A stretch of DNA of 56,250 nt from an uncultured Flavobacteriales bacterium (lineage in GTDB: Bacteria > Bacteroidota > Bacteroidia > Flavobacteriales > BACL11): NCBI GenBank assembly GCA_913031595.1, contig CAJWCP010000006.1:1-56250 (forward strand). Direction: 5' to 3'. The notes beneath the pieces were generated by a model, which ran no database searches, had not been told where the DNA came from, and saw nothing but the letters and a program-made list of their open reading frames with translations. Of the stretch, positions 52,146-56,250 are shown one piece after another. Position 1 is the stretch's first letter. Every line of letters starts with the position of its first letter. Position numbers and translations under genes: made by a program.

Positions 52146-52220
52146 CGGGGTATAGCGTAGCCCGGTTATCGCGCCTGCTTTGGGAGCAGGAGGTCGCAGG
52201 TTCGAATCCTGCTACCCCGA
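52146..52220 (+). tRNA. tRNA-Pro (TGG)
   Basis: CGGGGTA...TACCCCG acceptor, anticodon loop with TGG, GGTTCGAATCC T-arm. Confidence 0.95.
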
Positions 52221-52267
52221 CTTTTTTCTCTTTATATTGTCCCATAAATTTTCTGTAAGTTTGTCGT

Positions 52268-53047
52268 ATGAGAAAACTATTACTACTATTACTATGTATT
52301 CCTTTTATTGGGTTGGGGCAACAAACATATAATGAGATGCTTAAACATGATGTTGAGTGGCAAATAACATCTTGTAATAATGGATGTATAACAGATGTTT
52401 ATTATATTGATGGTGATACTATACATAATGGATATAATTATTCTATATTAAATGGATATCATTTTATTTCAAAAACTTTTTGGTTAAGAGAGGACATTCA
52501 AAATCAAAAAGTATATATGTCGTTTGTATACAATAATATTAGAAAAGAAGTACTGTTATATGATTTTAATTTGGAAATAGGAGATTCAATTAATATTTCT
52601 AATCCTATTAGTCCATTTGTTACTAATCCAGGATATTATCATGTAGATTCATTAGAGGTATTAGAGCTACAAAATGGTTTGAATTATGAAGTGTTTTATT
52701 TGTCATCATTATCTGTAAATATTAATGAATCAGCTGTATGGATTGAAGGAATAGGCTCATTAAGTTTAATAAACGCTCCAGGTGGCACCCCTAATGTAAA
52801 TGGACCTGGAAAATTGAGTTGTTATTTTAATAAAGGAGATTTAGTTTATTCTCAATTAGATTCTATTAATACATGTGTTTTAGTTAATCAAGTCTTATCA
52901 TCAAAATTGTTGAACTCTAGAACTAATAGTCGTAAATTAATTAATATTATTGATAAACTTGGAAGAAAAACAACTCCAGTTTCTAATATTCTACTCTTTT
53001 ATATCTACAATGACGGAACAGTAGAAAAGAAGATAATTTTTGAATAA
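52268..53047 (+). CDS. Secreted protein of unknown function with short T9SS-like C-terminal tail
   Basis: Signal peptide 'MRKLLLLLLCIPFIGLGQ'; C-term 'LINIIDKLGRKTTPVSNILLFYIYNDGTVEKKIIFE'. Confidence 0.75.
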   Translation: MRKLLLLLLCIPFIGLGQQTYNEMLKHDVEWQITSCNNGCITDVYYIDGDTIHNGYNYSILNGYHFISKTFWLREDIQNQKVYMSFVYNNIRKEVLLYDFNLEIGDSINISNPISPFVTNPGYYHVDSLEVLELQNGLNYEVFYLSSLSVNINESAVWIEGIGSLSLINAPGGTPNVNGPGKLSCYFNKGDLVYSQLDSINTCVLVNQVLSSKLLNSRTNSRKLINIIDKLGRKTTPVSNILLFYIYNDGTVEKKIIFE

Positions 53048-53213
53048 ATTATTTTTAAAAGTAATTTCTAATCAAGAAATTCAATTAATTTTTTAAGTTT
53101 GTTTTAGTAGATTGATTAGCGGTGCAAAAGGCGGAGCAATTTTTAGTTTGAAAGCTTGCTGTAATCATGTAAAAAGGTGTTAGGTTGTAATCCTGCTACC
53201 CCGACTTTTTTTT
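53003..53213 (+). repeat. Modular repeat copy A (ORF 3' tail + terminator-like hairpin + conserved core + tRNA-Pro 3'-end fragment)
   Basis: Near-identical by eye to 54550-54758; ends in 'ggttgtaatcctgctaccccgacttttttt'. Confidence 0.9.
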
Positions 53214-53262
53214 CTTTTTTATGCCTAGCATAATACTTCCTTTTTTTTCTTTTCTTTGCTTT

Positions 53263-54594
53263 ATGAAAAAACTATTAATAATATTAATTTGTGTGCCTTT
53301 GATGGGTATTGGACAAGGATGGGAGAAAATTATTACTGAATTTCCTGGAAAAGGCTATTCAGTTCAACAAACAGTTGATGGCGGATATATAGTATGTAGT
53401 ACTCATGATAGTTACTCATGTTTAATCAAAACTGATTTTAATGGCGATATCCTCTGGAATAAATCATATGATTTTTATGATGAAAAATTTTTTTCAGTTG
53501 AAGAAACCACAGATGGTGGATATATAGTATGTGGATATACGAATGATGTTAATCAGAACTCTGATTATAATCTTTATCTAATGAAAACTGATGGTTCCGG
53601 TGATACCCTTTGGACTAAAGTTTATCCTGGAACAAATGGAGAAAGAGGCTATTCAGTTCAACAAACTACAGATAGTGGATACATAGTATGTGGTACAATA
53701 ACAGATTTAAGCAACCCCCTATTTAATCGAAATGATGTATATCTAATAAAAATTGATGCTAATGGTTTAGAACAATGGAGTCAAACTTTTGGAGGTATAA
53801 GACATGACTACGGTGAATCCGTTCAACAAACAATAGACGGAGGTTTTATTGTTGTGGGTACTCATCAAGTCTTTGATTCACTATCAAATATTAATAATGA
53901 GTTTACTTATCTTATAAAAACAAATGGAAATGGAATAGAACAATGGAATTATCTGTTTGCTGATACCATGTTTTATGGTAATGATTATTTTTTCATTTCT
54001 AATGGTGAATCTGTACAACAGACAGTTGATGGAGGTTATATAATATGTGGAAGCAGCGCTGACCTTGATATGTACGCTGGGTATATGTATGGAGATGTGT
54101 TTTTAGTTAAAACAGATGCTAATGGTTTAGAACAATGGCGTCAAACTTTTGGAGGTATAACTCATGATTACGGACTATCAGTTCAACAAACTTATGATGG
54201 AGGATATATTATTACTGGAACTACTGAATCTTATGGAAGTGGCGATAAAGATGTATATTTAATAAAGACTGATGGAAATGGGATAGAACAATGGACTAAA
54301 ACATTTGGAGGAACAAACGACGATAGGGGCAGGGATGTACAACAGACGGTTGATGGGGGTTATATAATATGTGGAGAAACAAGAACGTTAGCAAACGGGG
54401 ATCCTAATGTATTTCTAATAAAAACAGATGCTAATGGAAATGCAACATCAACATTCAATATTCCTATAAATTCAAACAGAGAATTAAAGAAAGTAGTTGA
54501 TATATTGGGTAGAGATATAAATCCTGAAAAGAACAAGCCTTTTATAGAAATCTACAATGACGGAACAGTAGAAAAGAAAATAATTATTGACTAA
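53263..54594 (+). CDS. Secreted seven-repeat (beta-propeller-like) protein with T9SS-like tail
   Basis: Signal peptide MKKLLIILICVPLMGIGQG (ORF track starts at 53221); seven 'SVQQTxDGGYIxxG...DVYLIKTDxNGxxxW' repeats; tail 'IYNDGTVEKKIIID'. Confidence 0.8.
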   Translation: MKKLLIILICVPLMGIGQGWEKIITEFPGKGYSVQQTVDGGYIVCSTHDSYSCLIKTDFNGDILWNKSYDFYDEKFFSVEETTDGGYIVCGYTNDVNQNSDYNLYLMKTDGSGDTLWTKVYPGTNGERGYSVQQTTDSGYIVCGTITDLSNPLFNRNDVYLIKIDANGLEQWSQTFGGIRHDYGESVQQTIDGGFIVVGTHQVFDSLSNINNEFTYLIKTNGNGIEQWNYLFADTMFYGNDYFFISNGESVQQTVDGGYIICGSSADLDMYAGYMYGDVFLVKTDANGLEQWRQTFGGITHDYGLSVQQTYDGGYIITGTTESYGSGDKDVYLIKTDGNGIEQWTKTFGGTNDDRGRDVQQTVDGGYIICGETRTLANGDPNVFLIKTDANGNATSTFNIPINSNRELKKVVDILGRDINPEKNKPFIEIYNDGTVEKKIIID

Positions 54595-54758
54595 ATTATT
54601 TTTAAAAGTATTTTCTAATCAGAAAATCCAATTAATTTTTTAAGTTTGTATTAGTAGATTGATTAGCGGTGCAAAAAGCGGAGCAATTTTTAGTTTGAAA
54701 TCTTGCTGTAATCATGTAAATAGAGTGTAGGTTGTAATCCTGCTACCCCGACTTTTTT
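54550..54758 (+). repeat. Modular repeat copy B
   Basis: Aligns end to end with copy A, including the tRNA-Pro 3'-end fragment at 54729-54752. Confidence 0.9.
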
Positions 54759-54785
54759 CTTCTTATAATTTTCATAAATTTTCTG

Positions 54786-54793
54786 TAAGTTTG
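54786..54793 (+). promoter_or_regulatory. -7 box upstream of the 54813 ORF
   Basis: TAAGTTTG inside 'cataaattttctgtaagtttgt', the same 22 nt as found upstream of the 52268 ORF (TAAGTTTG at 52256-52263). Confidence 0.5.
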
Positions 54794-54812
54794 TATATCA
54801 AAAAGATAATAA

Positions 54813-55238
54813 ATGGTAACAAAACAGACCATAGAAGAAATAATAGAAGATAAAAACATACATGCTATATACGGAGATATCCTAGGGGATATAGCTGGTG
54901 ATCTAGCGCAAGGAATCTATCAATCAAGAAATTCGGACGCCTTTAAAGGAGGAATAGTTATATTTGAGATATCTAGAGAAGATCTTATAAATAATCGAGG
55001 ATTCAACACTGGTGAATCTTGGAAAGAAATTGGTCATGTTAAATATGGTGATTGGGAAGGTCTAAAAAAAATAATAGGTGAAGAAGAAACTATTTTAGAA
55101 AAAGAAGAAAGTGAGATATATATAAAAGAGTTGCTAACTGATTCTGGATATGAGCAAGAATCTTATGACATTGGTCGTTCCTTGCTATATTGCGAGGGTC
55201 ACTTTATATATTCAGGAGTTGGTAATACAGCGGATTGA
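54813..55238 (+). CDS. Hypothetical protein
   Basis: 141-aa ORF with promoter-like upstream sequence and repeat-derived downstream sequence; no known motif. Confidence 0.55.
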   Translation: MVTKQTIEEIIEDKNIHAIYGDILGDIAGDLAQGIYQSRNSDAFKGGIVIFEISREDLINNRGFNTGESWKEIGHVKYGDWEGLKKIIGEEETILEKEESEIYIKELLTDSGYEQESYDIGRSLLYCEGHFIYSGVGNTAD

Positions 55239-55287
55239 TTTATTTTTAAAAGTTTTTTCTTATCAGAAATTCCAAATAATTTTTTAA
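55238..55287 (+). repeat. Modular repeat copy C, truncated
   Basis: 'tttatttttaaaagttttttcttatcagaaattccaaataattttttaa' matches the first ~50 bp of copies A/B, then diverges. Confidence 0.75.
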
Positions 55288-55538: not shown

Positions 55539-55620
55539 AATTTAAGTTTGTAATAAAAAAGTATTAGGTTGTCTTCTAGTTCTTATTTCGAACTTTTTAG
55601 ACTAATTATGTAAAAAAATA

Positions 55621-56076
55621 TTAATCAAAATTAAACAGATCCTCTTTACTTGATTCTTCAAGTTCTTTTAATTTTCGCTTTTCTTCCTCTATTTTTCTTT
55701 TTCTTTCTTTTTCTTTCTCTTTAAAATCCTTGTATTGAGCATCTTTACTTCTAACAATATCTGCCATTTTCTTAACTGTTAGATCTTCTGGTATAAAAAA
55801 CATTTCATTTGAAATACTTTCTTTGTCATGGTACTTTTCAAATAATTTATGAGCTAACTCCTCAGTTCTTTCTACGTTATTTGTTTTGACTTTGATATTA
55901 ATTTTCCATCTTCCAGGCATAAATTCGTTTCTCTTATTAGCACTCTCTAATCTTTTAACAGCAGAGTCAACAGTTAGTCCAATTTTTACCATATTTTTAA
56001 TTCTGCTATTTTCAGCAAAATAAACTATTCCGGACTTTTTTCTTCTTTTTTTTCTAGCCATAAATTTCTTTTTCAC
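55621..56076 (-). CDS. GIY-YIG nuclease superfamily protein (T5orf172/MUG113-like)
   Basis: 'GIVYFAENSRIKNMVKIGLTVDSAVKRLESANKRN...ERTEELAHKLFEKYHDKESISNEMFFIPED' pattern; upstream TATATTTG-type -7 box on the minus strand. Confidence 0.65.
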   Translation of the reverse strand: MKKKFMARKKRRKKSGIVYFAENSRIKNMVKIGLTVDSAVKRLESANKRNEFMPGRWKINIKVKTNNVERTEELAHKLFEKYHDKESISNEMFFIPEDLTVKKMADIVRSKDAQYKDFKEKEKERKRKIEEEKRKLKELEESSKEDLFNFD

Positions 56077-56161: not shown

Positions 56162-56250
56162 AAATTATTTTTAAAAGTTTTTTCTAATCAAAAATTCCAA
56201 TTAATTTTTTAAGTTTGTATTAGTAGATTGATTAGCGGTGCAAAAAGCGG
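56162..56250 (+). repeat. Modular repeat copy D, cut by the window end
   Basis: 'aaattatttttaaaagttttttctaat...aagtttgtattagtagattgattagcggtgcaaaaagcgg' matches copy B almost base for base. Confidence 0.9.

Follow-up and report, generated by a model that had tools for sequence, protein, structure and literature searches.

What are the two altered copies of a tRNA-Pro 3' end that follow the intact gene in the genome of an uncultured Flavobacteriales bacterium? In the window, by which we mean the whole stretch of 56,250 nt analysed here and which is also the whole contig, tRNA-Pro carries aggttCGaatcctgctaccccgac at 52198-52221. An earlier note on this DNA was exact in the letters and coordinates of two fragments (A, 53182-53205; B, 54729-54752) that both read aggttGTaatcctgctaccccgac, with GT instead of CG in the T-loop. 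A pattern for GGTTNNAATCCTGCTACCCCGAC, allowing up to one mismatch, has three matches in the source genome, whereas the reversed control pattern has none across all 52 genomes of the family, and the resemblance is therefore not a matter of chance. Neither ARAGORN nor Rfam finds a tRNA at A or B, and no intact T-loop with acceptor stem is present there. We consider it probable that the fragments are the right ends (attR) of units integrated at the 3' end of tRNA-Pro and mobilised by an arm-binding tyrosine recombinase.

The repeat behind the tRNA-Pro fragments

The 24-nt fragments are the mere tail of a repeat of about 157 nt, here called REP, a longer homology that the earlier note had overlooked. 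Copies A and B are 95% identical over 156 aligned nt, and two further, incomplete copies lie downstream (Table 1); any continuation of the array beyond position 56250 falls outside the assembled sequence. At the T-loop position, 68 of 80 REP copies (27 genomes) have GT and none has CG, the other 12 having GC, TT, AT, CT or a gap, whereas every tRNA-Pro found in the source genome and its relatives has CG. Thus, of the suspected rule that repeats always carry GT and the tRNA always CG, the second half holds throughout and the first for 68 of 80 copies, and the proposal that GT is an attP-like variant borne by an element end gains support. The idea that two independent tRNA fragments drifted to the same two bases has nothing besides the shortness of the match in its favour; it is refuted by the 95% identity of A and B over about 157 nt and by the prevalence of GT, and can be practically dismissed. 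In this respect the earlier note was right that A and B are not two separate captures of the tRNA. It had also named copies with the CG form as a sign of independent origin, and such copies do occur: exact CG cores lie outside the tRNA at 14 places (in G012, G013, G014, G040 and G047). However, the left flanks read, 13 of the 14, are not REP, so these cores leave the interpretation of REP standing.

Table 1. Features of the tRNA-Pro array in the window
Feature	Position	Strand	Content	Basis
tRNA-Pro(TGG), putative primary attachment site	52146..52221	+		ARAGORN; Rfam 69 bits; recombinase genes follow the tRNA in relatives
Core of tRNA-Pro	52199-52221	+	GGTTCGAATCCTGCTACCCCGAC	
Cassette 1	52222..53205	+	leader with promoter-like sequence, 259-aa ORF (52268-53047), REP A, GT core	
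REP copy A, probable element right end	53049..53205	+	GT core at 53183-53205	pairwise alignment to B (94%); 129-nt HMM from 79 copies
Putative arm-type sites in REP A	53120..53140	+	tandem CGGTGCAAA / CGGAGCAAT, period 12	motif match
Cassette 2	53206..54752	+	443-aa ORF (from 53263), REP B, GT core	
REP copy B	54596..54752	+	GT core at 54730-54752	alignment; 97-98% identical to a G047 copy
Putative arm-type sites in REP B	54667..54687	+		motif match
Cassette 3	54753..55287	+	141-aa ORF (54813-55238), then truncated REP	
Third REP copy	55240-55287	+	truncated after 48 nt	alignment
T5orf172 (GIY-YIG-like) ORF	55621..56061	-	within array region	domain search
REP copy D	56165..56250	+	cut inside arm sites by contig end	alignment

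How widespread is this repeat? By BLAST, REP is present in 37 of the 52 genomes of the source's Flavobacteriales family, often in arrays and with up to 17 matches per genome. A pattern for its middle part (up to two mismatches) matches 23 genomes, all within the family; 247 genomes sampled from other families of the order have no match. Public records with exact REP matches are nearly all titled as Flavobacteriales MAGs, with two titled Flavobacteriaceae and Crocinitomicaceae. A viral origin was also considered and set aside, the pattern having no exact match in IMG/VR. In a tree of the 80 copies, the nearest neighbours of A come from G013 and G029 and those of B from G014 and G047, which belong to other genera; the smallest clade with both A and B spans eight genomes with a node support of zero, and nearest neighbours alone were used. 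Across genera, the source genome and the relatives compared share 95-97.5% identity in REP, with 97.5% between B and one G047 copy, but 69-73% in coaD, and REP has therefore either been exchanged between genera or been held under strong constraint. All sequences compared are MAGs, some of them incomplete (the source MAG is 77% complete). Because A and B are each closer to copies from other genera than to one another, local duplication of A into B, one of the two origins that the earlier note had offered, is contradicted by both tree neighbours and identities, and its other suggestion, a shared element end, is supported.

Two other identities for REP were weighed. It is not a degenerate whole tRNA or tmRNA: it has D-arm-like letters (GTAGATTGGTTAGC), but the 5' acceptor stem is missing and neither ARAGORN nor Rfam gives a match. 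Alternatively, REP might be a regulatory or small-RNA element between genes for secreted proteins, with an incidental tRNA-like tail. The REP consensus does have a box, TAAGTTTG, ahead of the core block that fits TAnnTTTG, the -7 box of Bacteroidota promoters, and a T-run past the core; yet REP has no Rfam match, RNAalifold finds no fold for the consensus, and the occurrence of the same core and arm motif at the ends of recombinase-bearing elements would be left unexplained, all of which makes a regulatory identity very unlikely.

Recombinase-bearing elements and putative arm sites

In relatives, cores are accompanied by a tyrosine recombinase that combines three domains, Arm-DNA-bind_5, Phage_int_SAM_5 and Phage_integrase. 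An integrase gene lies beside the 3' end of tRNA-Pro in eight genomes (G029, G045, G015, G022, G032, G048, G049 and G050), with the start of one in G036, and none lies beside tRNA-Pro in the window. Recombinases of subfamily 1 start 326-330 nt past the core in eight elements, found at tRNA-Pro in G045, G029, G049, G015, G022 and G032, at a core reading GGTTTTAGTCC in G049:C4 and at the CG core that follows a G014 lipoprotein gene (G014:C24); a ninth gene of this subfamily, in G044, has a degenerate core at a similar distance. Those of subfamily 2 start 280-293 nt past the core in three elements, at tRNA-Pro in G048:C2 and G050 and at a REP core with GT in G048:C1. Since the distance is fixed in otherwise unrelated surroundings, the core marks an element boundary. 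The complete elements, which sit at tRNA-Pro or at other copies of the core, run from the core through the recombinase about 330 bp on and restriction-type cargo to a REP with GT core. Their distal ends consist of REP and a copy of the tRNA 3' end in G029, G045 and G014: two end in a GT-type core (G029:C4 152374-159738; G014:C24 31507-37054), and in the third (G045:C2, 116195 to about 121340) the end core is degenerate and reads GGTCGTAATCCTGCTACCACGAC. Cargo includes a C5 methylase, a type I restriction subunit, GmrSD and Schlafen/AlbA proteins, and conjugation genes were not seen in the stretches read. In the source genome, a 77%-complete MAG, no matching recombinase was found, just XerC/D-like proteins of about 297 aa, a point against the mobilisation proposed above.

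In lambda-type attachment sites, an arm-binding recombinase acts on arm sites at the element ends. A tandem motif with a 12-bp period, GGTGCAAA, is common to REP and to the left ends of all nine subfamily-1 elements. Its left-end version, CGGTGCAAAttcTGGTGCAAATTTT or a close variant, lies 138-141 nt past the core in all nine, and its REP version, CGGTGCAAAaagTGGTGCAAATTTT (B-type CGGAGCAAT), about 50-62 nt ahead of the core GGTT. Within 1.65 Mb, the tandem motif occurs 76 times in REP, nine times in left ends and once elsewhere, and its reversed control once; it is this joint count that carries the argument for arm sites, because alignments of single pairs of elements stay within the shuffle range for most pairs. 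The same tandem motif at both ends, together with a recombinase of the arm-binding type, would fit the lambda-type layout, and we infer that the putative motif is bound by the recombinase.

How might the altered fragments have come about? In the scenario that we envision, the core AATCCTGCTACCCCGAC is the substrate of an arm-binding tyrosine recombinase, such that each inserted unit would restore an intact tRNA on its left and leave its own GT copy of the core on its right. REP, placed just left of the core and furnished with the tandem GGTGCAAA arm sites, would make up the right arm of the element's attachment site, and the elements that encode the recombinase would bear the same sites at their left end as well. 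The window would contain non-autonomous units only, lined up like integron cassettes and presumably mobilised in trans by the recombinase. REP copies share their sequence up to ...AATCCTGCTAC and diverge beyond it; therefore, the junction lies at the T-loop or 3' of it. As to the exact crossover position, GT would be located either just outside it, or inside an overlap within the T-loop, with the tRNA kept at CG by selection. Comparison across the family, made at the level of sequence, thus shows REP as a family-wide element end with a fixed distance between recombinase and core, a shared arm motif and a fixed GT, whereas the mobility of the units would follow from this layout by inference.

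Cassettes, dispersed cores and chromosome order

Downstream of tRNA-Pro, the window runs gene, REP, gene, REP, gene, truncated REP, two ORFs on the opposite strand, and REP. The first ORF (259 aa) has a signal-peptide-like start and, by eye, a C-terminus of the T9SS-sorting-domain type, with no match in Pfam or NCBIfam; the second (443 aa) has a partial match to an SBBP beta-propeller, far below the cut-off. At its sdhB locus, G014 carries a homologue of cassette 2 (73% over 1.0 kb), and G013 shares 271 bp with a G029 unit at 94% identity. Such homologues show the same cargo at different places, as far as sequence can tell, and not active movement. In all loci read, 58 units lie between successive cores or REPs, with a median length near 1.2 kb, most of them without a recombinase and 44 of them with the longest ORF on the REP strand. 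Recombinase-less units have a core on both sides, REP on the right and no arm motif in the left leader; that the motif is present at the right end only is a further point against the mobilisation proposed above. The units of the window, composed of a gene, REP and core without a recombinase, look like non-autonomous cassettes.

Could the array instead be an integron-type cassette array in which REP serves as the attC site of an integron integrase? The array layout, the one or few genes per repeat, the prevailing orientation of repeats with genes (44 of 58) and some IntI-like proteins in relatives would agree with this. However, RYYYAAC/GTTRRRY boxes are absent from the REP consensus (by eye), no protein in any of the 52 genomes reaches the TIGR02249 cut-off, the cores match a tRNA 3' end, and an arm-binding domain, absent from IntI, is part of the recombinase at the core. 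An integron in the strict sense is thus highly improbable.

Several other recurrent sequences were seen in these genomes. Small secreted proteins of about 100-140 aa with ...NVSYASFPV... recur beside REP in many arrays (L043, L044, L045, L047, L104, L106, L118 and L319); one of them, when scanned, had no Pfam match. A different type of right end, with a conserved AAAATTTGATTTGTAGTTTTTAGTATAG before a CG core, follows three different sorting-domain genes (L107, L108 and L110). A second array (L127, G011:C53, 5-4018) has six tandem copies of about 51 nt that correspond to the 3' half of another tRNA-Pro(TGG)-like sequence, from the anticodon arm to ...CCACCTCGAC, with a terminator-like hairpin added; one or two genes separate the copies. 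Another repeat, GTGGACCTCTCGGTCCTTATTTCGAACTTTTTT, often comes after a CCCACTC..GAGTGGG terminator-like hairpin (L108, L110, L124, L042, L045, and the window at about 55580-55605), and TTATTTCGAACTTTTT occurs in 17 distinct contexts, with none for the control.

Many REP sites lie far from tRNA-Pro, and CG cores in relatives also follow coaD, sdhB, sucB, a carboxylase-like gene and a lipoprotein gene; both facts count against the reading of the fragments as attR ends of units at tRNA-Pro. Core copies follow the stop codons of housekeeping genes at L102, L104-L107, L111-L115, L119 and L322, and from genome to genome the right-hand neighbours of such cores have changed places between sites. No core separates coaD from the adjoining rdgB in G010, G002 and the source genome; in G015, the two genes are 30 bp apart, and the gap may contain a decayed core. 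The segment that separates the lipoprotein array from the sdhB array is inverted in G014, as was predicted from G012 and borne out by further sequence; it measures about 22 kb and lies between oppositely oriented core/REP arrays (L303 and L113 in G014:C24, compared with L104/L105/L313 in G012:C46), and G018 and G009 retain the ancestral neighbours of sdhB. sdhB itself is 94-100% identical across genera in G009, G012, G013, G018 and G038 (L273-L277) and only about 30% in other family members, so its horizontal transfer is possible, judging from these identities.

The inversion may be the product of either homologous or site-specific recombination. Both in vitro and in vivo, a tyrosine integrase of Thermococcus pTN3 inverts the DNA that lies between opposed, tRNA-derived att sites (PMC5495485), and represents a candidate mechanism, albeit an archaeal one and for an inversion that is known here from synteny alone. 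Conceivably, REP might have spread mainly by homologous recombination or gene conversion of the repeated ends, with site-specific recombination merely having founded the system. The 80-97% identity of the repeats would suit such a spread, as would the conservation of gene 5' and 3' ends (signal-peptide start and sorting-domain end), the truncated REPs (L106:6169-6222 and the third copy of the window) and a homologous origin of the G014 inversion. However, the fixed distance between recombinase and core, the shared arm motif and the preservation of the tRNA would be left unexplained, and we regard homologous spread as an unlikely main route, although it may act alongside. Beyond the reading of the fragments as attR ends, we tentatively entertain a bolder scenario, which we deem possible but rather less than even: a tRNA-derived counterpart of the integron, in which the recombinase captures and shuffles REP-marked single-gene cassettes in trans, the GT allele of the T-loop acts like an address and steers cassettes towards array cores and not the tRNA, and opposed arrays flip chromosome segments.

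Relation to known systems and implications

In Prochlorococcus, tycheposons are tRNA-targeting elements of marine bacteria with a tyrosine recombinase and variable cargo; we know of no single-gene cassette arrays with a shared right arm among them, a distinction drawn by description and not by sequence. The nearest precedent appears to be the ssrA islands of Dehalococcoides, where a mismatch between gene and repeat at a fixed position places insertion in the T-loop (PMC3146451). As in those islands, units follow a single RNA gene in tandem, and a copy of the gene's 3' end delimits each of them; just upstream of every repeat there is a conserved motif; a fixed disagreement between gene and repeat marks the element side; and recombination genes stand beside the left end in some units only (PMC3146451). 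However, the Dehalococcoides islands have a serine recombinase and a six-gene module, lie at a tmRNA gene and have no repeat farther than 100 kb from it (PMC3146451), whereas here we find a tyrosine recombinase with putative arm sites, tRNA-Pro, mostly recombinase-less units of 0.4-2.4 kb and repeats also far from the tRNA. The general process that matches by analogy is the site-specific accretion of CIMEs with ICEs and IMEs, in which units without a recombinase but with att sites come to lie in tandem at one target (PMC5704250). CIMEs, which stem from the decay of ICEs, retain attL as well as attR (PMC5704250), whereas the left end here has no arm sites. Like integron cassettes, the arrays line up small, promiscuous genes, mostly in the same orientation and each with a recombination site at its end; unlike them, they have no attC boxes, no IntI over the cut-off, a promoter-like leader of their own, and a duplex, tRNA-derived core with putative arm sites. 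The tyrosine recombinase with arm sites, the single-gene units and the dispersed cores set the system apart as a new variant. No description of it in Flavobacteriales was found in the literature searched, in which subscription papers are partially covered, and the cassette system of this family is apparently undescribed.

If our interpretation is true, then these abundant, uncultured marine flavobacteria with small genomes would possess an integron-like gene bank built from the ordinary parts of tRNA islands, in which genes for secreted proteins are common cassette cargo and restriction systems lie on the recombinase-bearing elements. REP provides a recognisable tag of 160 nt for finding such cassettes, and its copies are a candidate explanation for assembly breaks in these MAGs. 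The family may also offer a testable case of att sites that are scattered through a chromosome and reorder it.
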